In this document: piece by piece, positions 674 through 13,583 of the stretch
How the letters are laid out: each line of letters begins with the position of its first letter
Numbering within the stretch: the stretch's first letter is position 1
From: a virus
DNA length: 35,087 nucleotides
Virus record (IMG/VR): IMGVR_UViG_3300047490_000081
Span: 1-35,087 of that record
Direction: 5' to 3' (one strand)
Translations under genes and position numbers: made by a program
The notes under the pieces: generated by a model
Databases searched by the model: none
Told to the model about the DNA's origin: nothing
The model's input: the letters and a program-made list of their open reading frames with translations, nothing else

Positions 674-932
674 TGAGAATAACCCGCTCGATCTTTTGGA
701 TTGCAAGCGGGTTTTCAGGATCGCCAGCCACGGTTACAGATTGCGCGGACTTCCCGTCAAGTCGGTCTGCAAGCTCTTTTACAGCCCATGCCTCGCCTTG
801 GGCGGCAAGATCAAGCAATTTTTCTGCGGCATCCCTAAGGCGCTTCCCATCATCCTGAGCAATGGCCCGCTGGAGCGCGCCATAAAACGCGCGAGACTTC
901 GCGGCATTCTGATTTCCTACTGGAGCGCCCAT
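642..932 (-). CDS. terS: Terminase small subunit
   Basis: A 96-residue protein beginning GAPVGNQNAAK, a start typical of phage small terminases related to DUF5681 proteins. It is charged and helical, with conserved-looking segments AIAQDDGKRLRDAAEKLL and ELADRLDGK. The family recognises the packaging site and recruits the large subunit. It sits directly upstream of, and overlapping, terL on the same strand, the standard arrangement. No separate helix-turn-helix is obvious by eye. The packaging (pac) site, if P22-like, could lie within this gene; I cannot locate it. Confidence 0.88.
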   Translation of the reverse strand: MGAPVGNQNAAKSRAFYGALQRAIAQDDGKRLRDAAEKLLDLAAQGEAWAVKELADRLDGKSAQSVTVAGDPENPLAIQKIERVILNAKNAQSTDA

Positions 933-971
933 TGATTTAACCTATATCGTTTTGATTCCCAATAGTTTATG

Positions 972-1325
972 CTAAATGAAAATCTCTACTCGAACCGCCC
1001 ATTCCGTATGGGGCCGCTGATCGTAAGCCCACGTGATCCGTTTGTCGGCATCGTCAATCCCAAGCCATTCGGCAACGGCATCCCTTGGGGCTTTCAGGCA
1101 TCCACGCAAATTGTCATCGTCCAGGGTTTTCCCGCGCGGCCCTGAGAGCCTTGTCATTCGGATTACCGGGCAATCTTTGACCAGTTCGGCGCGTTGACTC
1201 GGCGTGAGTTTTTGCGTTTGCAGCATCCAGTTTGTTGCTTGCCTTTCAGCCCGTACCCGCTTTGCACGAACCGCCCAATGCTCTCGGGTATTCGGGGCGC
1301 TTACTGTCCTGAGCGGGATGTCCAC
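972..1325 (-). CDS. RusA-like Holliday junction endonuclease
   Basis: The hallmark is the central segment LDDDNLRGCLKAPRDAVAE followed by WLGIDDADK (about residues 69-95), matching the RusA family pattern of Asp-rich metal-binding residues, a conserved lysine and a terminal acidic loop. RusA enzymes resolve branched DNA and in phages help debranch DNA before packaging, consistent with its place just before the terminase genes. A longer frame (to 1526, 184 residues) is open, but the zinc-protein gene at 1301-1489 occupies that stretch. I therefore prefer the GTG at 1325, giving 117 residues, the usual size for the family. No strong ribosome binding site is visible; translation is probably coupled to the upstream gene. 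Confidence 0.85.
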   Translation of the reverse strand: MDIPLRTVSAPNTREHWAVRAKRVRAERQATNWMLQTQKLTPSQRAELVKDCPVIRMTRLSGPRGKTLDDDNLRGCLKAPRDAVAEWLGIDDADKRITWAYDQRPHTEWAVRVEIFI

Positions 1326-1489
1326 AGCAATCGCAGGTTTTCCAATCGTTCTGCCGGAATACTGCGGCGCAAGTGTTCGCCTATCGCTTTCCGTGCATTC
1401 TGGGGCGCTTTCGCCAACAGCCGCAGGCAACATTCGTCGCAGCTCAGCAGGTACAAGCCGGATGGCTTCGCGCAGGCTTCGCATGTCAC
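1301..1489 (-). CDS. Small cysteine-rich (zinc-ribbon-like) protein
   Basis: A 62-residue protein starting at a GTG that overlaps the upstream stop (GTGA). Cysteines occur as C-E-A-C at residues 3-6 and C-D-E-C-C at 17-21, a probable four-cysteine zinc site, followed by a basic helical tail. Small proteins of this kind are common beside replication and resolvase genes in proteobacterial phages, without assigned function. The coupled start and end (overlapping both neighbours) and the cysteine pattern are what persuade me it is real rather than part of a longer RusA reading frame. Confidence 0.68.
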   Translation of the reverse strand: MTCEACAKPSGLYLLSCDECCLRLLAKAPQNARKAIGEHLRRSIPAERLENLRLLWTSRSGQ

Positions 1490-2061
1490 ACCTCCACCGC
1501 TTCGGCCTGGATCGCTTCCCGCTCAAGCCTCGCCTCGCGCTGGTCTTCGGTTTCGACCTCCGGGCTGATCGTCAGGTTTTCACGCAAGGCAACCCGCCAG
1601 TTCTCGCGGGCAACAGACGGCAGGTTTTCGCCTACGGCCTCCCGGTCACGAAGCTCATATGCCCATGCCTTCGGGTGCGGCTTCGGTCTTTGCTTCAGCT
1701 CGACAAGCGAGCGCTTGAATGCGGCATAGGCCGGAGTCATGCGCCCCGCCTCGGGTTGCCAGTGCCCCGGCTTTTGCAGCGCTTGTGCGGCAGCACGTTC
1801 GGCCGCTTGCTCTGCGGCGGTTGCGCGTTCCCGGCGTCCGCTGGCGGCATCCCTTGCGAGTTTCAGCACCTCGGCAGGAAGCGGCATCTTCGCGTGCGAC
1901 TTCGGCCAGTCGGTCAGCACGGCTACAACGTCGATCCGCTCGCATTCGGCCAGCGCATCGCCCCAAACGAGCAAGCCTGCGGCGGATGGAGCCTTGCCAC
2001 CTAGCGCATCGGCAAGCTGCGCCAGCCGTTGCGAAAGCTCGGGAAGCTCATGCTTTTGCAT
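1486..2061 (-). CDS. Helical phage protein of unknown function (early leftward unit)
   Basis: A 191-residue, alanine/glutamate/arginine-rich, mostly helical protein (for example ATAAEQAAERAAAQALQ around 80-97), starting with ATG at 2061. It overlaps the DUF1376 gene by 14 bases upstream and the zinc-protein gene by 4 bases downstream. The N-terminal 75 residues (segments LAQLADALGGKAPS and LLVWGDALAECE) look globular; the C-terminus is acidic and charged. The position between a DUF1376 protein and the resolvase suggests a replication-accessory role, for instance a helicase-loader-like partner, but I recognise no motif that proves it. Confidence 0.72.
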   Translation of the reverse strand: MQKHELPELSQRLAQLADALGGKAPSAAGLLVWGDALAECERIDVVAVLTDWPKSHAKMPLPAEVLKLARDAASGRRERATAAEQAAERAAAQALQKPGHWQPEAGRMTPAYAAFKRSLVELKQRPKPHPKAWAYELRDREAVGENLPSVARENWRVALRENLTISPEVETEDQREARLEREAIQAEAVEV

Positions 2062-2806
2062 CGCGTTCCTCCATCATCCGAAGGGCTTTTTGAGCCTCGG
2101 CGGCGGGGTCATAAGCCGACTGCGGCCTGCTCTCAGGTTCGGCTATCCAGCGGTCTAAAACCGCGTACACATACGCGGGCGGGATGCGCGCTCCAGGGCC
2201 TTTAACCCGCCTCGCTTCCTCCGCAGCGGCAGCGGCTAGAGCGGGCGTAATTCCGCCCTTGGCCAAAGCGAGTAATCGCGGCTCCATGGGGTTCGATTGT
2301 ATCCCCTTTTCCCGTAGCGCGCGCGAAATTTCACCGGCTGCGCCTATGCGCGCTTTTTCTTGGTCTTGGTCTTGGTCTTGGTCTTGGTCTTGGTAGCATT
2401 GCCTTCGCACTGCGTTCGCTATGCGTTCGTTATGCGTTCGCATTGCGTTCGCATCGGTTTCGCATTGCGTCTGCTTTGCGGTTTGCAATGCGGCCCATCG
2501 TCCTGCAGCACTGCGCGAAGCCTTCGCGCGCTTGTCGTTATGCACTGCGATTTCTGCATCGCAGCGCGCGTGTCGCCAGCCTTCATCGGTCAGATTGAAG
2601 AATTCGGACAGAACGCTTTCAACTGCGGCGCGCTCCTCTTTCGTTTGCGCCCTGACCAGTCGGCAAGCCTGTTTCATGTCTGCCGGGATCGGGCTTTCTC
2701 GCGTGTAGTAAATATCCAACAGTCTCCTATACGCGGAGTCCTCGATCATTGAAAGGTGCGCTGTGGCGCTTGTGTAATCGCCTATGTGGAATGGGTAGAA
2801 GTTCAC
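2048..2806 (-). CDS. DUF1376 (YdaU-like) protein with a (Asp-Gln) repeat
   Basis: The N-terminal 90 residues (MNFYPFHIGDYTSATAHLS, then SAYRRLLDIYYTRESPIP) are the DUF1376 signature, a winged-helix-like domain in phage proteins encoded beside replication functions. The middle is basic and alanine-rich, then comes Q-D repeated about five times at residues 138-149, encoded by six perfect 6-bp units at 2359-2394. The C-terminus (about 155-252) is helical and resembles the DNA-binding or loader tail of such proteins. It starts at a GTG overlapping the upstream stop. The exact biochemical role is unknown; a replication-initiation accessory is the common guess. Confidence 0.88.
   Translation of the reverse strand: MNFYPFHIGDYTSATAHLSMIEDSAYRRLLDIYYTRESPIPADMKQACRLVRAQTKEERAAVESVLSEFFNLTDEGWRHARCDAEIAVHNDKRAKASRSAAGRWAALQTAKQTQCETDANAMRTHNERIANAVRRQCYQDQDQDQDQDQEKARIGAAGEISRALREKGIQSNPMEPRLLALAKGGITPALAAAAAEEARRVKGPGARIPPAYVYAVLDRWIAEPESRPQSAYDPAAEAQKALRMMEERDAKA
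2359..2394. repeat. Six perfect tandem copies of a 6-bp unit (cttggt)
   Basis: Six uninterrupted copies encode the Asp-Gln run of the DUF1376 protein on the minus strand. Because the unit is a multiple of three, copy-number change alters linker length without shifting the frame. It sits between the DUF1376 domain and the helical C-terminal domain. Confidence 0.95.
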
Positions 2807-5100
2807 GCGGCGGCCTCGTCAAAAAGGCTCGCTGTATGCGCTTTTGCAGAAGACAAATACCGAATTGCTTGTTTGTAATAACTCTCCTTCAATTCTGCCC
2901 CGACAAACCTGCGGCCCATCTTTAGGCTGACGTAACCCTCGCTTCCAATGCCTGTAAATGGCGAAAAAACCAAGTCGCCTGGGTTGCTCCAAAGCTCTAC
3001 ACAGCGCTCAATCACGTCGAGTTGAAGCGGGCAAATGTGCCGCTCCTCATCCTTCTCCTTTGCCAGCTTGTAATTCAGCACGTCCGTCTGGTCGATATCA
3101 AACCAGACTGGCGAGGCATAACGCTGCCATACGGAGATCGAGTAAAGCCGCTGACGCTCGTCTTCACTACGAGCGCGCCCCCAGTCTTTTGAATTCGGCG
3201 CGTTGTAGCTCGATCCAATGTAATCGCAAAAACGCTCTTTCCCGCGAGTTACTGGCTCCCATTTTTCTTCATCGGCCCACTTGCGCATGACGATAATGTA
3301 ATCGGCCATGCCCTGCCTGCTGGCGGCGCTGTCTTTGCAGAGTTGCTTGTAAAGCAGTCCGTGATTTTTCGTGCGCTGCATCTCGATTACCGGATCTTTC
3401 CAGATCGTCACTCGGCTATGGTATTGCCACCCCCTTGATTCGTACATCTTGATGATCTCGCCGGGAAAATCACGAAGACCCGCAGCGCCATCGCGCCCCT
3501 TATACATGGGCAGGTCTTTGCAATGAATCGCAGTCAAACGTCCTGGCTTTGTGATCCGATAAAGCTCCTCGGCAAGAAATGCGTAATGCTTCATAAACTC
3601 GCCATCGTCCGTGCTGTTTCCCATGTCATAGTCTGAATCGCTATAGATGTACAAATTCGAGAATGGCGGGCTATAGACGCTGAAACCGATTGAGTCTGCC
3701 TCGATTTTCCGAGCGACATGCACGCAGTCGCCGTGGTGAATGGTCCATCCGTCACCGCTTTGTGATCCAAAGTAGGGAGTCTCATTCATTTTGCTTTCCT
3801 GTTTGTAAAAGTTTGAGATTGCGCGAACCATCTCCGCCTTCATGACGTTGTGTTTCTTTTCCTTGTCTTGAATGATCGACAAGATTGAGCGCTCAGAATC
3901 AGCGGCCATGACGTAGCAGTTCACCTCGCGCTTCTGGCCGAATCGGTAGCAGCGACGGATTGCCTGGTAATAGTCTTCGTAGCTGTATGAAAGGCCAACA
4001 AATGCCATATTCCGGCAGTGTTGAAGATTCAGCCCCATGCCAGCGATTGACGGCTTAGTGATAAGCACGCGAATAGAGCCGTCGACAAATCCGTCTAGGC
4101 TCTTTTCTTTCTTGTCAATCGAGTCTGAGCCGCGCAAATCCACCGCGTCAGGAATCAAACCTTTAAGCGCGTCGGCTTCGTAATTCGTATTGCACCAAAC
4201 TAGCCACGATTCATCGCTGGCGTTTACCAGCTTTGCCACCTCTGCGGCGCGGCGCTCAATCGTCAGTCTGCCCTCTTTATGAATGCTCGTTGCGTTGATT
4301 GTTACGGTTCGGAAAAGCTCCCCCTCTGCAGCGGGCAGGCCATCAGTAGACACTTCGACGAATATCTGATTTAGTGCAGGCAATACGTAATCGCTTCCGT
4401 CATATCCCAAATCTGCAGGATTAGACAGACACACGCTCCAGGTCGCACACCATTCCCAAAACTTCGTGGCGGCGTGCGGGCGAAGGACATACGCTCCGGC
4501 TTCCATCGTGTCATTCTGGAAAAACCGCATAATCATCTCGTTAGACGGCATGATGCCTAGGAATTCGGCATGATTCCCAAGCTCAAGATAATCATTTGGG
4601 CTAGGCGTTGCCGTGCATGCAAGTCGATACGGGACGCCGGAGCATGACTCAATCAGCGCGCGCTTGGTTTTCCCCATGTAAGACTTTAGGATGCTTGACT
4701 CATCCAATACCACGCCGCTAAACGAGGACACGTCAAACCGATCAATCATCTCGTAGTTTGTGATGATGATGTTTCCAGTCGCCTCGGATTGATCGCGGCA
4801 ATATTGCACTTCAATTCCAAACTTTGCCGCCTCTTTCACGGTTTGATGGGCTACACACAACGGCGCAACGATCAACACTCGTCCATTGGTATGACGGCGG
4901 ATTTCATCCGCCCATGCCGTTTGCATTGCAGTCTTTCCGAGGCCGGTGTCGGCAAAGATTGCCGCTCGACCTCGGCGCAGTGCCCATTGCACAATATCCC
5001 GCTGATGATGAAAAAGCCCAGCAGGCAACGTGATATCGCCAGTAATGCCGCTTGTGCGAATTGCGGCCCGCTTGCTAGATACAAACTCGTCGTAGTTCAC
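2803..5100 (-). CDS. SNF2-type helicase fused to a DNA methyltransferase
   Basis: A 765-residue two-domain protein. The N-terminal helicase (about 20-430) has Walker A ADTGLGKT at 50-57, a DExx box LDESS at 132-136, TATP at 163-166 and motif VI QAIRRCYRFGQKR at 379-391. The C-terminal part (about 440-755) is a beta-class amino-methyltransferase: catalytic YSPPF at 476-480 precedes the AdoMet-binding FSPFTGIGSEGY at 712-723. Such fusions occur in phages and are thought to modify phage DNA, a possible defence against restriction; phage P1 DarB combines related activities. The GTG at 5100 is chosen for its GGAGG five bases upstream and GTGA overlap with the preceding gene; the open frame extends to a TTG at 5112. 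An internal ATG at 3789 has its own ribosome binding site. Target site and N4-cytosine versus N6-adenine specificity cannot be read here. Confidence 0.92.
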   Translation of the reverse strand: MNYDEFVSSKRAAIRTSGITGDITLPAGLFHHQRDIVQWALRRGRAAIFADTGLGKTAMQTAWADEIRRHTNGRVLIVAPLCVAHQTVKEAAKFGIEVQYCRDQSEATGNIIITNYEMIDRFDVSSFSGVVLDESSILKSYMGKTKRALIESCSGVPYRLACTATPSPNDYLELGNHAEFLGIMPSNEMIMRFFQNDTMEAGAYVLRPHAATKFWEWCATWSVCLSNPADLGYDGSDYVLPALNQIFVEVSTDGLPAAEGELFRTVTINATSIHKEGRLTIERRAAEVAKLVNASDESWLVWCNTNYEADALKGLIPDAVDLRGSDSIDKKEKSLDGFVDGSIRVLITKPSIAGMGLNLQHCRNMAFVGLSYSYEDYYQAIRRCYRFGQKREVNCYVMAADSERSILSIIQDKEKKHNVMKAEMVRAISNFYKQESKMNETPYFGSQSGDGWTIHHGDCVHVARKIEADSIGFSVYSPPFSNLYIYSDSDYDMGNSTDDGEFMKHYAFLAEELYRITKPGRLTAIHCKDLPMYKGRDGAAGLRDFPGEIIKMYESRGWQYHSRVTIWKDPVIEMQRTKNHGLLYKQLCKDSAASRQGMADYIIVMRKWADEEKWEPVTRGKERFCDYIGSSYNAPNSKDWGRARSEDERQRLYSISVWQRYASPVWFDIDQTDVLNYKLAKEKDEERHICPLQLDVIERCVELWSNPGDLVFSPFTGIGSEGYVSLKMGRRFVGAELKESYYKQAIRYLSSAKAHTASLFDEAAA
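3787..3800 (-). promoter_or_regulatory. Internal ribosome binding site and start in the helicase-methyltransferase gene
   Basis: On the minus strand AGGAAAG (3800-3794) stands four bases before an in-frame ATG (3789-3787). Starting there would yield a 328-residue stand-alone methyltransferase (2803-3789), beginning exactly at the inter-domain boundary. Seen: spacing and frame. Inferred: use in vivo. Confidence 0.45.
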
Positions 5101-6980: not shown

Positions 6981-7047
6981 ACAGCAGGAATACGAAGAGT
7001 GGCTTAACCGTATGCACCAAAACGCGCACGAAGGGACAGAAGAATGA
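6970..7047 (+). CDS. Micro acidic protein (25 aa)
   Basis: ATG at 6970 within the preceding gene's end; encodes a hydrophilic, acidic helix (TDEQQEYEEWLNRMHQN) and stops in an ATGA overlap with the erf-like gene at 7044. The overlap on both sides makes it a plausible translated link in the chain, perhaps mainly for coupling. No function assigned. Confidence 0.45.
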   Translation: MTDEQQEYEEWLNRMHQNAHEGTEE

Positions 7048-7643
7048 AGGTCTATCAGGCAATCAACAAAGTGCAAGCCGACATTGCAAAAGAAGGCATC
7101 GGCAAAGATCGCAAGAACGAGCAGCAAGGCTACAAGTTTCGTGGCATTGACGATGTTTACAACGCACTCGCTCCGATGCTTGCGCGGCACGGCCTCTGCA
7201 TTCTTCCCCGCGTGACTTCGCGTGAGGTTGTCGAGCGCACCAACGCCAAAGGAACCGCGTTGTTTTACGTGACCGTGGGCGCTGAGTTTGACTTTGTGTG
7301 TGCCGAGGATGGATCAAAACACACAGTCGTCACCTACGGCGAGGCGATGGACAGCGGCGACAAAGCCACGAACAAAGCCATGTCCGCCGCTTACAAGTAC
7401 GCCTGTATGCAGGCTTTCAGCATCCCGACTGAAGGCGACAACGACGCCGATGCGACCACGCACGAAGTACGCGGGCGCGATCAACCTGACCCGTTCACGC
7501 ACGATCCCGCCACGGTTGGCCGGTTGAAGTCTGCTAAGACAATGCACGAACTGGCAGAGGCATGGGCAGCTATTCCGGCAAACCTTCGTGCGCGGTATTC
7601 GGCGTTTAAGGACACGCGCAAGGCGGAATTGGAGGCGCAGTAA
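7044..7643 (+). CDS. erf: ERF-family single-strand annealing protein
   Basis: 199 residues, close to P22 Erf (about 204). The diagnostic core is present: QQGYKFRGIDDVYNALAPML at about 27-46, then GEAMDSGDKATNKAMSAAYK at about 99-118 and IPTEGDND. Erf-family proteins form rings that anneal complementary single strands, allowing circularisation of terminally redundant phage DNA and recombination-driven concatemer formation. The exonuclease and SSB-like genes just downstream complete a recombination set. The start overlaps the preceding micro-ORF (ATGA). Confidence 0.93.
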   Translation: MKVYQAINKVQADIAKEGIGKDRKNEQQGYKFRGIDDVYNALAPMLARHGLCILPRVTSREVVERTNAKGTALFYVTVGAEFDFVCAEDGSKHTVVTYGEAMDSGDKATNKAMSAAYKYACMQAFSIPTEGDNDADATTHEVRGRDQPDPFTHDPATVGRLKSAKTMHELAEAWAAIPANLRARYSAFKDTRKAELEAQ

Positions 7644-7927
7644 TGTCAGGCGGCAGCATGAATTATCTGTACTCCAAACTGGAGTACGACGCGACGTTTG
7701 AGACAAACACGGTCGAGCGCAAAGCGTTTAGAAAGCACCTTGCTCTCGTTGCAAAGGCGCTGCATGATATTGAATGGGTCGATAGCTCAGACTACGGCCT
7801 GGGCGATGAAAACGAAGCCATCCGCGCCTGCCTGCATCCGTCAGTGTTGCTTGAAACTGCGCTTGATAACGCGCGTGAAGCTGTTGCGGCGTTGCAAGCT
7901 GAAATTGCCAAAGCGGAGGGCAAATGA
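7643..7927 (+). CDS. Conserved-type phage protein between annealase and exonuclease
   Basis: 94 residues starting MSGGSMNYLYSKLEYD, in a TAATG overlap with erf and ATGA overlap with the exonuclease gene. The protein is acidic and helical, with VAKALHDIEWVDSSDYGLGDE in the middle and a C-terminal alanine-rich helix. Proteins with this start are common in proteobacterial phages next to recombination genes, without known function. The tight coupling suggests stoichiometric production with the recombinases. Confidence 0.75.
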   Translation: MSGGSMNYLYSKLEYDATFETNTVERKAFRKHLALVAKALHDIEWVDSSDYGLGDENEAIRACLHPSVLLETALDNAREAVAALQAEIAKAEGK

Positions 7928-8541
7928 TCCCGCAACAGTCCTCCGCATGGGTGCGGCAGCGCATCGGCTGGCTTACTGCGAGTCGAATGAAAGATGTGCT
8001 AGCCGTACTCAAAAACGGCCAGCCTGCCGAAGCGCGGCGCAAGTACGCGATGGAGCTTGTAGCCGAGCGCATGATTGACGGGGCGCTAGATCATTTTGTC
8101 AGCCCTGCCATGCAGCACGGCATTGACTGCGAGCCGGAAGCGGCGGCAGCGTATGAAGAAACGACCGGCAACCTACTGGATAACTGCGGCTTTCACCCGC
8201 ACCCGTCAATCCAGTTTTTCGGCGCAACACCTGATCGGCTGCTAGCCCACGACGGGCTGGTCGAGATCAAGTGTCCGACAACCGTCACGTATGTCAACTG
8301 GCGGGCCGCTGGCGTGGTGCCAGAGGAACACAAGCCGCAAATGCTGGCGCAGCTTGCGTGTACTCGGCGGCGGTATGTCGATTTCGTGGCGTTTGATCCG
8401 CGAGTGAGGCAGCGGGAACACCGCATTTTTATCCGCCGCTTTGAGCCGACCGCAGAGCAGATTGCAGCGGTGGAGCAAGCGGCAGTGCAATTCCTGGCCG
8501 AAGTTGAGGCCCTTTTCCAGCAAGTAACCGAAGGAGTTTGA
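7924..8541 (+). CDS. YqaJ/lambda-type recombination exonuclease
   Basis: 205 residues. PD-(D/E)xK core of the lambda exonuclease/YqaJ family: HGIDCEPEAAAAYEE (Glu70 region), FFGATPDRLL (Asp104) and GLVEIKCPT (Glu114 and Lys116), with N-terminal LTASRMKDVL helix. Such enzymes chew 5' ends of duplex DNA to expose the 3' strands that the annealing protein pairs. Adjacent Erf-type annealase and SSB-like protein make the function secure. Start overlaps the previous stop. Confidence 0.94.
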   Translation: MIPQQSSAWVRQRIGWLTASRMKDVLAVLKNGQPAEARRKYAMELVAERMIDGALDHFVSPAMQHGIDCEPEAAAAYEETTGNLLDNCGFHPHPSIQFFGATPDRLLAHDGLVEIKCPTTVTYVNWRAAGVVPEEHKPQMLAQLACTRRRYVDFVAFDPRVRQREHRIFIRRFEPTAEQIAAVEQAAVQFLAEVEALFQQVTEGV

Positions 8542-9442: not shown

Positions 9443-9733
9443 ATGAACACCATCACTGTAAACGGCGTTGATTATGTCCGCGCTGATTCTGTTCCGAGCG
9501 GCAATCGGGCTGTTGTCGTTGTTGATCGTGGCTGGATTTTTGCTGGCGATGTGACCCGTGAAAACGGCCGGATTCGGCTGTCTCGCGCCGTGCATGTTTT
9601 CAAGTGGGAGTCGATTGGCTTTGCGAAGATGGTCGAAACGCAAAAGGCCGATCTGCGGAAGATTGCCGATGTTGATTTGCCAGAATCGGCGGAAATCTTT
9701 TGCATCCCCGTTGCAGACGATTGGGGCCTGTGA
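9443..9733 (+). CDS. Conserved-type phage protein, beta-rich
   Basis: 96 residues from the ATG at 9443 (AAAGGA ribosome site nearby; the frame extends to 9401). Sequence begins MNTITVNGVDYVRAD and contains VVVVDRGWIFAGDVTREN and LSRAVHVFKWESIGF, an alternating beta pattern. Proteins of this type are frequent in proteobacterial phages and often directly precede a glycine/tyrosine repeat ORF, as here (TGATG overlap). Function unknown. Confidence 0.75.
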   Translation: MNTITVNGVDYVRADSVPSGNRAVVVVDRGWIFAGDVTRENGRIRLSRAVHVFKWESIGFAKMVETQKADLRKIADVDLPESAEIFCIPVADDWGL

Positions 9734-9957
9734 TGTTTAGACCAGTCGGCTACGGCTACGGCTACGGCAACGGCAACGGCGACGGCTACGGCTACGGCTA
9801 CGGCAACGGCAACGGCGACGGCTACGGAGACGGCTACGGCTACGGCAACGGCAACGGCGACGGCTACGGAGACGGCTACGGCTACGGCAACGGCTACGGC
9901 TACGGCAACGGCGACGGCTACGGCACAGTTAATACACGGAATCGTCGCAGGCTTTGA
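9733..9957 (+). CDS. Gly-Tyr/Asn/Asp dipeptide-repeat protein
   Basis: 74 residues, translation coupled to the previous gene by a TGATG overlap. After MFRPV the chain is almost purely G-Y, G-N and G-D dipeptides (about 29 of them), then a basic end (NTRNRRRL). The composition predicts a disordered, aromatic, phase-separation-prone or surface-adhesive polypeptide; G-x-G-x-D stretches can also bind calcium, but the RTX nonapeptide is not present. The coupled start, the in-frame repeat and its recurring partner gene support expression. Function unknown. Confidence 0.7.
   Translation: MFRPVGYGYGYGNGNGDGYGYGYGNGNGDGYGDGYGYGNGNGDGYGDGYGYGNGYGYGNGDGYGTVNTRNRRRL
9748..9924. repeat. Hexanucleotide-based tandem repeat (GGC NAC)
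   Basis: About 29 six-base units in which almost only one base varies: GGC followed by TAC, AAC or GAC, with a few GGA GAC. Units group into higher-order blocks of Y-G-N-G-N-G-D-G-Y. Variation is thus concentrated at one codon position and always changes the amino acid. Confidence 0.95.
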
Positions 9958-10534: not shown

Positions 10535-11061
10535 GTGACCAAGCGATGACCACCCTCAACAAGATTCGCGAACACAGCCCCTGCGCCGATGGATGGTCCA
10601 AGCTGCTGCGCCACCTCGGCAAGACGCAGGCCGACGACGAGCCGCTGGCGCTGGTCACCGTCCTCGACAGCAATGGGCTGGAAGACGCGCTGTGGTGCCT
10701 GCGCGCCTGCGACGGCATTGACCGCAAAGCACGACTGTATGCAGTCTGGTGTGCCAGACAGGTGCAGCACCTGATGACGGATCCACGCTCGCTGGCCGCG
10801 CTTGATGTGGCAGAGCGGCACGCTAACGGCGAGGCCACAGATGCCGAATTGTTCGCAGCGAGGGCCGCAGCGTGGGACGCAGCGAGGGACGCAGCGAGGG
10901 CCGCAGCGTGGGACGCATCGTGGGACGCAGCGTGGGCCGCAGCGTGGGCCGCAGCGACGGCCGCAGCGTGGGACGCAGCGAGGGGCGCAGCGTGGGACGC
11001 AGCGAGGGACTCACAAGCTGCCGAGTTTCGTAGGGTGTTCGGAGGGGCCAGCGATGAGTGA
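10531..11061 (+). CDS. A-A-W-D/A-A-R-D repeat protein
   Basis: 176 residues, ATGA overlap with the preceding gene. A globular N-terminal half (about 1-105; [51 protein letters not shown]) is followed by about 13 tandem four-residue units such as AAWD, AARD and AAWA, then a short tail. Similar proteins with an Imm5-like N-terminus and alanine/tryptophan repeats occur in phages and bacteria; they have been linked by name to immunity proteins but their phage role is unknown. The repeats form a predicted amphipathic helix with Trp or Arg every four residues. Ordinary codon usage in the N-terminal part and repeat drift suggest expansion within the gene. Confidence 0.8.
10854..11012. repeat. 12-bp imperfect tandem repeat
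   Basis: About 13 copies of a unit like GCAGCGTGGGAC. Two positions vary: T/A (tryptophan versus arginine) and A/C (aspartate versus alanine). Several other frames stay open through it, giving spurious R-G-T-Q and L-R-P-T reading frames on both strands. Confidence 0.93.
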
Positions 11062-11548
11062 CCTCAGACAAGCAGCGCAGCAGGCGCTTGAGGCCATGAA
11101 CTACACCGGCATGGATGTGGGCAAGTTCAATCGGATCAACGCGGCCAGTGCAGCCCTCCGCGCCGCACTGGAGCAGCGGGCCGAGCCGGTGGCAGGTGTC
11201 AAGGATTCCTTGACAGTTCAGGCAGAGCCGCAGTCATGTCCCGACGATGCGGCATGCCGAGATGAAACCGTGCGCCGTCTGCATGCCGAGGTCGAGCGGC
11301 TGCGCGGGTTTGAAGATCGAGCGGAGCGTGCCGAGCAGGCTGTGGTCGAGCTATCTGAGGAGCGCGATCACTTCAAGGCATTGGCCGAGCCGCAATGGTG
11401 CGCTTGCAAGCCGACGCGATGCGAGTGGCAGGGGATGACGGAGGAGGAGATTTGGGGCTTGGCTGCGAACTGCTTGGACAGCGTGGCTGGCAGGCTTCAA
11501 TTCGCCCGCGCCATTGAAGCGAAGCTAAAGGAGAAGAATCATGGATAA
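11054..11548 (+). CDS. Coiled-coil phage protein of unknown function
   Basis: 164 residues from ATG 11054, eight bases inside the repeat gene, with GGAGGGG just upstream. N-terminus [18 protein letters not shown] and [12 protein letters not shown] are typical of phage accessory proteins; the middle ([35 protein letters not shown]) is a coiled coil; the end, [24 protein letters not shown], has three cysteines. The frame is open far upstream through the repeat, but the upstream part is an artefact. No function recognised. Confidence 0.72.
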
Positions 11549-11852
11549 GGAAAGCATCATCCGAATGGCAAGCGAGTGCGGGCTGATGATGCGCGATCAA
11601 CCGATGCACGGCGTTGAAGAGTTGGCAAAAGCAGCCTACGCAGCCGGTGCCGCAGCAGAACGAAAACGCCTGAGCGAAGAAATCCATTCTTGCCATGCAA
11701 ACTGCGATCATCCTGTATGCGTGGCCGTGCGGAAAGAGCGGGAGGCGTGTGCGAAGGTGTGCAATTGGATCGAGGTTGGTTTGCGCAATCCAGGCATGAA
11801 GCTTGTTGCCTCTGACTGCGCCGCCGCCATCCGTGCAAGGGGGCAATCGTGA
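11541..11852 (+). CDS. Small helical accessory protein
   Basis: 103 residues; ATG at 11541 inside the previous gene's end with AAGGAG upstream. Contains LAKAAYAAGAAAERKRLSEE and VRKEREACAKVCNWIE, the E-R-x-x-C-A-K style shared by many small phage proteins, and ends in AAAIRARGQS. Cysteines and histidines (HSCHANCDHPVC, about 49-60) could bind zinc. Function unknown. Confidence 0.7.
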   Translation: MDKESIIRMASECGLMMRDQPMHGVEELAKAAYAAGAAAERKRLSEEIHSCHANCDHPVCVAVRKEREACAKVCNWIEVGLRNPGMKLVASDCAAAIRARGQS

Positions 11853-11971
11853 CAGACGCCGAGCGCAGAAGTCAGCGGCGCCGGCACGGCGTCCACTGGA
11901 CTGCCGGGTTCGGCGGCTGCCTGCAACGAAGCGCCGTAGTGCCAGCGCCGATTTTTGGAAAGGACAGAACC

Positions 11972-12160
11972 ATGGGTTGGAACAGAGAAGAATTGAAGCG
12001 AGGCGCGTTTGTACTCGTCGGGCTGTTGGTTGTGGCGATCATCTGGATTGGCGTTTACAGCAAAGAGAAGGAATGCGCGGCGAAAGGTGGCGAACGGCTA
12101 CGGCCTCTTTGGGGAACGTTTGCGTGCTATGACAAAGCATCGCTGCGAGAGATGAAGTGA
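11972..12160 (+). CDS. Small single-span membrane protein
   Basis: 62 residues from the ATG at 11972 with GGAAAGGA 8-14 bases upstream. One membrane helix, FVLVGLLVVAIIWIGVY (about 13-29), preceded by a basic stretch and followed by a soluble tail with two cysteines (CAAKGGERLRPLWGTFAC). The frame extends to a GTG at 11849 that overlaps the previous stop (103 residues); that extension is arginine-rich and lacks a ribosome site, so I prefer the shorter form. The stop at 12158-12160 directly abuts the attC-like element. Confidence 0.6.
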   Translation: MGWNREELKRGAFVLVGLLVVAIIWIGVYSKEKECAAKGGERLRPLWGTFACYDKASLREMK

Positions 12161-12161
12161 C

Positions 12162-12217
12162 GCCGAACAATCGAATTCAGCCGCCGCGCAGCGGTCGGCT
12201 GGAATGAGGGGTTAGGC
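12162..12217 (-). repeat. attC-like: Integron attC-like recombination site (56 bp)
   Basis: Outer boxes GCCGAAC (12162-12168) and GTTAGGC (12211-12217) match the RYYYAAC/GTTRRRY integron core, the first with one mismatch. Between them an imperfect inverted repeat, TTCAGCCGCCGC and GCGGTCGGCTGGAA, folds with two bulged bases (T and G) on one arm. Read on the minus strand these are an extra A and an extra C on the left arm, as in canonical attC sites. Length and architecture fit a short attC. No integrase is encoded here. Confidence 0.6.
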
Positions 12218-12274
12218 CTCGGCCCGGAGCGATCCGAATTCGAGGCGTTCGCGGAGCAGTGGACCGGGCGCAGC

Positions 12275-12478
12275 ATGGCGCAACTCCTGGCCTGCGACAC
12301 CTGGGGCCTCGGACTTGACTCGTTTGCGTGGGCCTGTTGGCAGCGCGCGAAAGCCGCAGAGCGCGAGCGGTGCGCGAAGCTCGCTGAGAGTTTCACAGAT
12401 CCATGCGATGGTCCAGACTCTGCGATGGACACTCAGTTGGTGGCGTCGTGCATAGCGGCGCGCATTCGTGAGGCCTAA
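12275..12478 (+). CDS. Small accessory protein, apparently missing its own start
   Basis: 67 residues from the only ATG. The frame is open upstream to the attC-like element at 12161, and the residues before the ATG (SEFEAFAEQWTGRS) read like genuine protein, yet no ATG, GTG or TTG start precedes them. The body (FAWACWQRAKAAERERCAKLAES and a C-terminal VASCIAARIREA) matches the style of its neighbours. I infer that the 5' end was lost or replaced when the attC-like element arrived. The stop TAA lies inside a GCCTAAC heptamer (12473-12479). Confidence 0.55.
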   Translation: MAQLLACDTWGLGLDSFAWACWQRAKAAERERCAKLAESFTDPCDGPDSAMDTQLVASCIAARIREA

Positions 12479-12596
12479 CGTAATTTGGGAGGCACCTTCC
12501 GCCGGATAACCTGCCTCGGATTCACTAGAGCATCCGCAGGCAACTGATTAACCGCGTAGCGGGCGGCGGATTACTGCCCGCACATCAGGAGCAACT
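12479..12596. other. Non-coding gap with two hairpins
   Basis: 118 bases without a convincing ORF. Two perfect six-base inverted repeats: GAGGCA (12489-12494) with TGCCTC (12512-12517), and GCGGGC (12559-12564) with GCCCGC (12576-12581). The second ends six bases before the ribosome site of the 19-residue ORF. Neither is followed by a T-run, so they are not classical terminators; a leader structure is possible. Confidence 0.4.
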
Positions 12597-12656
12597 ATGT
12601 CAGAAGCAGTCGGCATCATCATCGCAATCCTCGAATGGATTCGCCTCGCCATCTAA
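12597..12656 (+). CDS. Tiny hydrophobic peptide (19 aa)
   Basis: ATG preceded by AGGAG with a five-base spacer, encoding MSEAVGIIIAILEWIRLAI. The size and the isoleucine-rich helix resemble small membrane-active peptides such as type I toxins (Ibs family, also about 19 residues), though there is no sequence match I can claim. It is followed at 12 bases by another strong ribosome site and ORF. Too short to be proven by sequence alone. Confidence 0.4.
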   Translation: MSEAVGIIIAILEWIRLAI

Positions 12657-12667
12657 CCGGAGGAATC

Positions 12668-12784: not shown

Positions 12785-12811
12785 TAAAGGGGGGCTTCGG
12801 CCCCCTACTTT
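12785..12811. terminator. Bidirectional intrinsic terminator between converging units
   Basis: Perfect stem GGGGGC/GCCCCC (12790-12795 and 12800-12805) closed by a TTCG tetraloop, flanked by AATAAA on the left and TACTTT on the right, so each strand has a U-rich tail. It separates the rightward unit (ends 12784) from the leftward holin gene, whose stop codon overlaps the stem. Confidence 0.88.
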
Positions 12812-13191
12812 GTCGCGCCCTGCACCTTCTCAAACGTCCTCAATCCACCAAGACCTAGCATTCCCAGCAGGATCGTAATCAGGTCTGCCATGTCCAGCGG
12901 CGGGATCGGTTGCGCCTGCAACCCAAAGACCTGCATCAGCCACGGCAGCAAGGGCCGGATGATGTAGTGAAACACCAGCGCAAGCCCGCACACCCAGCCG
13001 ATGAACGGCCGCCATCCGGCAACGAAGATCGTTCGGTGCGTTGCCTCTGCCGCGTTAACCTGTAGCTGACCCTGTACCGCTGCAACCTGGGCGGCAATGA
13101 TTGCCTTTTCTTGCTCGCTCTTGTCCGGCCAAATCTTGTTGATTGCCGTGGTGACAAGATCAATGCCAGCGGTCACGGGATCGAGTGCCAT
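12805..13191 (-). CDS. Holin, GTA_holin_3TM family
   Basis: 128 residues from the ATG at 13191 (GGAG seven bases upstream; TAATG overlap with the endolysin stop; the frame runs on to 13239). Signature segments ALDPVTAGIDLVTTAINKIWPDK and AGWRPFIGWVCGLALVFHY mark the three-transmembrane holin family first described in gene transfer agents. Membrane helices lie around 60-78 and 99-116, with a hydrophobic bridge IIRPLLPWLMQVFGL between. Holins permeabilise the inner membrane at lysis. It is the last gene of the leftward unit. Confidence 0.88.
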   Translation of the reverse strand: MALDPVTAGIDLVTTAINKIWPDKSEQEKAIIAAQVAAVQGQLQVNAAEATHRTIFVAGWRPFIGWVCGLALVFHYIIRPLLPWLMQVFGLQAQPIPPLDMADLITILLGMLGLGGLRTFEKVQGATK

Positions 13192-13583
13192 TAATAGCTC
13201 CAAATCATCGGGCGGACTAGCGTCATACCATCTTCGCAAGTGTCCAAGTGGATGAACCGGCCCGTTCCTTTTTGCTGCGCGCCAATGCCGGTGAATCCGT
13301 GCTTCAAAGCGATCTGCACAAGCCTGTAAGCGTCTCTGCCGGTAACGTCAATGTCGGCAGCATTGCCGGTTGCGTGTGCGCCTGGGGTTGCCTTTGCCGC
13401 TTCAATCGGGTGCTGTGGACAACGATAGCCGCTGTTGATCCGCATGGGCGCGTTGTATTCTTGCCGCACTGCAAACAACTTGTCCATGAACAGACGTTGC
13501 ATTTTCTCGGTACGGCAGTGCTTGCAGACAAATTCCCGCTGCTCAAAGAACGGCGCGTAACGCGACCAAATCACTTCATCCAT
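13191..13583 (-). CDS. Endolysin, peptidase M15A (D-Ala-D-Ala type)
   Basis: 130 residues. The M15A zinc site is intact: SGYRCPQHP at 51-59, GAHATGNAADID with His70 and Asp77, and FIHLDT with His112. There is no signal peptide, so export depends on the holin. The start at 13583 lies within the previous gene's end; the frame extends to 13718 but that is not needed. The extra CKHC motif at 20-23 recurs in phage members of the family. It cuts cell-wall peptide cross-links to release progeny. Confidence 0.9.
   Translation of the reverse strand: MDEVIWSRYAPFFEQREFVCKHCRTEKMQRLFMDKLFAVRQEYNAPMRINSGYRCPQHPIEAAKATPGAHATGNAADIDVTGRDAYRLVQIALKHGFTGIGAQQKGTGRFIHLDTCEDGMTLVRPMIWSY

Follow-up and report, generated by a model that had tools for sequence, protein, structure and literature searches.

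The window analysed here is a virus record of 35,087 bases from IMG/VR, an incomplete contig with the typical head and lysis genes of a phage (portal, major head protein, terminase, and holin) and, in its early gene region, a short array containing two integron attC sites. The plus-strand order is a gene at 11541–11852, attC2, gene B, attC1, and gene A. The 56-nt attC1 site (12162–12217) is bounded on the plus strand by the boxes GCCGAAC (12162–12168) and GTTAGGC (12211–12217). Read on the minus strand from 12217 to 12162 (GCCTAACCCCTCATTCCAGCCGACCGCTGCGCGGCGGCTGAATTCGATTGTTCGGC), it comprises an R'' box, GCCTAAC (12217–12211), an L''/L' stem with a short loop, and an R' box, GTTCGGC (12168–12162); the inner stem has two additional bases on its left arm, a C and an A. 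Its R'' box is a perfect RYYYAAC box. The attC2 site also lies on the minus strand (11914 to 11858), with the R'' box GCCGAAC and an R' box decayed to GCTCGGC. In both sites the boxes enclose an imperfect palindrome, with departures from the RYYYAAC/GTTRRRY pattern. The flanking early gene (11541–11852, plus strand) ends in a TGA 5 nt ahead of attC2. Gene B (MGWNREELK..., 11972–12160, plus strand) lies between the sites, antisense to both, and runs from an ATG at 11972, preceded by the ribosome site AAAGGA, to a TGA ending at 12160. Gene A (12218–12478, plus strand) is a small phage gene, antisense to attC1, that lacks a start. Its frame is open from 12161 and ends in a TAA (12476–12478) within GCCTAAC (12473–12479), which is GTTAGGC on the minus strand, an R'-type box forming the outer edge of cassette A. 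This heptamer and the GTTAGGC at 12211–12217 are the only two of their kind in the window.

A pattern scan of genome contigs for sites resembling attC1 returned three, of which the closest (GCCTAACCCCTCATTCCAGCCGACGCCTAGCGGCGCGGCTGAATTCGATCGTTGGGC, L200:10001–10057) is near-identical and lies on a contig of a Burkholderiales metagenome-assembled genome from groundwater, a few kb away from a gene for an integron integrase (IntI). We built a covariance model from 20 aligned attC sites located beside IntI in Burkholderiales, holding out attC1 and this near-twin. In 19 bacterial integron regions, 123 of 124 matches fell on the expected strand, and the orientation calls are therefore reliable. On the minus strand, attC1 reached 52.6 bits (E 1.1e-10), vs 12.2 bits on the plus strand, in line with strand-marking extrahelical bases in the L''/L' stem. 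DNA folding gave z-scores of -3.1 and -2.2 for the minus and plus strands, respectively. The attC2 site scored 48.4 bits (E 1.1e-9), the next match in the window reached only E 0.45, and 94 other viral loci (644 kb) contained no match at E<0.1. An Rfam scan of the window gave no match, nor did the exact left half of the plus-strand attC1 site match in viral contigs. The 56-bp element is thus a genuine integron attC, with the minus strand as its canonical strand. The first-pass annotation had described these heptamers, the foldable stem, and the extra A and C on the minus-strand left arm, and had named the minus strand as the best attC orientation, all of which the sequence and the scores bear out. 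It had proposed a covariance search, which returned a significant match; neither outcome that it had named as refuting, the absence of such a hit or conservation of the interval as ordinary coding sequence with an intact start in close relatives, was obtained. It had also placed the element within 12162–12479, where attC1 indeed lies, and had missed attC2 outside that interval. We had ourselves at first delimited one cassette running from 12479 to 12162, a view dropped after attC2 and the phage arrays described below came to light.

Sites of this type recur in other phages. A search of 50 viral records over their full length revealed attC matches in seven, with up to 13 per record (13 in G426, 9 in G022, and 5 in G004); the portal protein of G004 is 63% identical to that of the window phage, and G426 is a holin relative. 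One 16-nt right-arm pattern matched 78 stretches of viral contigs, in which the model identified more than 300 attC sites at E<1e-3. The viral contig L305 carries attC arrays on both strands (plus 769–3676, minus 11130–12326). A near-perfect palindrome at L241:1054–1123 differs from the other sites in showing almost no strand bias, since the model scores it as attC at 28.3 bits on one strand and 25.6 bits on the other.

To assign the coding strand of the cassettes, we used a codon model trained on long phage open reading frames (ORFs), calling a strand when the two scores lay 5 units apart and the best was at least 5, and counting only units with a valid ORF. For 188 phage cassettes from 30 viral loci, 146 genes were antisense to attC and 3 were sense, whereas the same model applied to 99 bacterial integron cassettes gave 64 sense and 8 antisense. 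Five array contigs that bear IntI gave 23 antisense and no sense genes, and the GenBank annotation of phage MW202573 places the genes on the plus strand, opposite the attC sites that the model finds on the minus strand. The window conforms to this arrangement. Genes A and B are both antisense, rather than sense ORFs with attC at the 3' end as in a classical cassette; the codon score is +8.7 for the gene A frame (12161–12475) vs -20 for the opposite-strand ORF at 12127–12432, and +6.4 for gene B. The reversed gene, which the first-pass annotation had considered odd, is what these phage arrays normally show. Among 75 antisense products, a Pfam scan matched few, including DNA methyltransferases, DUF5131, an RNA ligase, and several DUFs, and a PHROGs scan added mainly phage families of unknown function.

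The attC sites also contribute starts and stops to these genes. In 55 of the 146 antisense genes, the stop falls precisely within the R' box of the adjacent site (on the opposite strand, GTTAGGC reads GCC TAA C; offset +1), and most of the remaining stops fall within about 20 nt of it. By a simple rule, the start lies inside the attC loop in 27 cases (e.g., L203:8546–8641 and L240:13537–13655), most with ribosome-site motifs, while in many short phage sites it lies 17–43 nt past R''. Many phage cassette proteins carry an attC-encoded peptide, SEGLG, and gene A carries the comparable NEGLG. In L239 and L311, gene bodies 98.6% identical follow attC sites of different lengths, 126 nt and 60 nt, so loops vary behind one gene. 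As the first-pass annotation had noted, the second heptamer holds the stop of gene A, and coding-like sequence precedes the only ATG: the frame contains no ATG, GTG, or TTG before 12275, and no start occurs in the attC1 loop or just past R''. The short attC1, which holds no start, is a plausible cause of the missing start of gene A; loss of the loop may have removed it, and gene A is probably not translated normally.

The R'-type box at 12473–12479 is adjoined by a hairpin read from the sequence (GAGGCA...TGCCTC, 12489–12517), for which the covariance model gave no significant match and which is possibly a decayed third attC. A tiny ORF with a ribosome site (12600–12656, MSEAVGIIIAILEWIRLAI) has its TAA within ATCTAAC (12651–12657), another RYYYAAC box, and together with the hairpin it may represent a third, decayed inverted cassette.

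The window does not show the complete integron arrangement of intI next to attI and an array, as no IntI was found. It corresponds instead to a cluster of attC sites lacking integron integrases (CALIN), with two model-supported sites (11858–11914 and 12162–12217) within a few kb and no integron integrase nearby in this incomplete record. Elsewhere, 5 of 48 array contigs (L354–L358) encode an IntI above the curated TIGR02249 cut-off. In these contigs, intI adjoins the array on the strand opposite attC, which is the classic layout, and several contain a second ORF resembling a tyrosine integrase on the other side of the array (partly read by eye). The L200 contig bearing the attC1 twin encodes RecE, RecT, an exonuclease, a phage integrase, and an IntI beside an inverted array, and is considered a prophage on account of its RecE, RecT, exonuclease, and integrase genes. 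A second, different IntI occurs in the metagenome-assembled genome that holds the prophage integron (G001 contig C93, 13817–14809). In the IntI tree, the enzymes of phages with inverted arrays make up a single clade (support 87/96) that lies outside the bacterial set (92/99). The viral contigs retrieved through IntI similarity (L249–L266) showed mixed orientation (9 antisense and 4 sense), mostly branch apart from the inverted-array IntI, and were left out of the support for inversion. Within them, the IntI of L249–L261 are 52–59% identical to that of L200 on separate branches, with clean cassette differences at R'; these contigs are possibly another phage group or a misassigned integron group.

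In two pairs of IntI-bearing contigs retrieved through IntI similarity, the members differ by entire cassettes, and the breakpoints lie at R'. Of the 37 blocks shared among arrays without IntI, 24 terminate at R' and 15 begin at R'', where about 3% each would be expected by length; 13 of the 37 blocks consist of the hairpin alone, from R'' to R'. Two exchanges run from L'/R' to R', as IntI would predict. Separately, L239:4577–4702 and L311:3486–3611 share an identical 126-nt attC, loop included, from R'' to R', joined to different genes.

Considering these results, we interpret the window as carrying a cassette array that is small, decayed, and without IntI, and that belongs to a widespread phage integron of inverted type; to this reading we assign a probability of roughly 0.77. 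The R' box of attC2 is damaged, and therefore the array is probably decaying. In the model that we propose, each array unit would consist of one small early phage gene and one attC, with the gene antisense. Translation would start in the attC loop or shortly past R'', the coding sequence would then leave the hairpin, and the R' box of the next site would often supply the TAA. The array would be transcribed with the phage early genes, toward the integrase gene where IntI is present; transcribed in this way, it could do without the integron promoter usually found next to intI. The phage's own IntI, where one is encoded, would drive the gain, loss, and exchange of units at attC, while in phages without IntI, such as the window phage, recombination may be performed by the IntI of the host or of a co-resident prophage. 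The two cassettes of the window would likewise be mobile through IntI-driven recombination. A broader proposal, slightly more likely than not, is that phages own a distinct "reverse integron" class, in which a phage IntI clade feeds arrays pointing toward intI, attC serves as a 5' leader often with a start codon, R' often provides the stop, and phages without IntI share the cassette pool.

Several points weigh against this interpretation. The R' box of attC2 is degenerate, and in that of attC1 a C occupies a position reserved for a purine. A PF00589 (tyrosine recombinase) search of the incomplete window contig, G004, and G426 gave no match. The loci share ancestry and cassettes, so that the counts are not those of independent events. 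Moreover, some exchanges move a gene body without the attC loop (shared by L239 and L311) or an attC without its gene (the hairpin shared by L281 and L347), neither of which is predicted by classical IntI movement. Given these mixed block boundaries, either recombination by IntI or homologous recombination by phage enzymes could have operated.

The latter process alone underlies the strongest alternative, that the attC-like hairpins have ceased to act as IntI sites and are kept as homology islands and translation-start structures, the genes being shuffled at the conserved arms by phage recombination of the RecE/Erf type. The window phage encodes suitable proteins on the plus strand: an Erf-like single-strand annealing protein (7044–7643; phrog_155, E 1.8e-40) in the early gene region shared with the array, and a RecE-like exonuclease (7924–8541; phrog_149/phrog_434). 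Besides the gene-only and hairpin-only exchanges, a one-unit difference between L289 and L328 has its junction in the shared R''/L'' arm, and most array contigs lack IntI. However, the sites retain canonical bulges, boxes, and strand bias, in several contigs intI immediately adjoins the array with the classic divergent arrangement, and the exchanges from L'/R' to R' fit IntI. We therefore consider this alternative unlikely, while taking it seriously. It is far less probable that the window phage captured one bacterial integron cassette by chance, at a secondary site. The attC1 site does resemble bacterial-type short sites, and the interval from 12479 to 12162 has the limits of one cassette; yet attC2 is also present, the cargo ORF is phage-like, and the inverted layout recurs in many phages. 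The first-pass suggestion of a cassette or cassette fragment captured by the phage thus holds as to the integron attC and fails as to a lone bacterial capture. GC-rich phage DNA could also form a palindrome by chance, and the fold by itself is only moderately unusual, but this reading is excluded by the E-values of the two sites (1e-10 and 1e-9 within 35 kb) and by the lack of matches in 644 kb of other viral loci.

Gene A gave no match in PHROGs or NCBIfam, although phage L011/L203 holds a weak relative. PHROGs also gave no match for the window ORF that contains gene B, and neither the array DNA nor the insert region and its proteins had relatives among INPHARED phages. Downstream, a holin gene on the minus strand (12805–13239; phrog_3427, E 8.6e-30) is convergent with the array. 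The early gene region also contains a long run of short repeats at 9720–9930, encoding GYGYGNGNGDGYG in one frame and VAVAVA in the opposite frame, and repeats at 10802–11060, at the end of an early gene, encode peptide repeats in two frames, one of which is TQRGTQRGP.

If the proposed model is correct, arrays running the other way, with attC doubling as translation start and stop, would follow an expression logic different from that of bacterial integrons. Phages would act as a reservoir and vehicle of cassettes, the one-at-a-time reshuffling of small phage early genes would be explained, and the arrays would bear on how a gene acquires an attC.

The occurrence of attC in phages is itself already known. 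Sites and CALINs in phage genomes have been reported, with some phage attC recombining with attI1 via IntI1 (Qi et al. 2023, PMC9892861). The phages described there resemble the window in having attC without IntI, and one of them, MW202573, shows the inverted layout on our re-analysis; the searched passages of that report do not mention reversed cassettes. In the open-access literature that our search covered, no account turned up of arrays whose genes are inverted relative to attC. The inverted layout is not shared by phage TJE1, which has one weak attC match and genes in the usual direction. The sedentary chromosomal integrons of Burkholderiales contain the same attC type as the phage arrays, and one covariance model fits both. 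Cassettes of chromosomal integrons are driven from the intI side, where a promoter beside intI expresses them away from intI. In Burkholderiales, the genes are sense with attC at their 3' end (64 vs 8), whereas in the phage arrays they are antisense with attC at their 5' end. The closest counterparts of the window are the L200 prophage integron, with a near-identical attC1 and inverted genes, and the IntI phages L354–L358, whose genes are likewise inverted; these differ from the window in having IntI beside the array.
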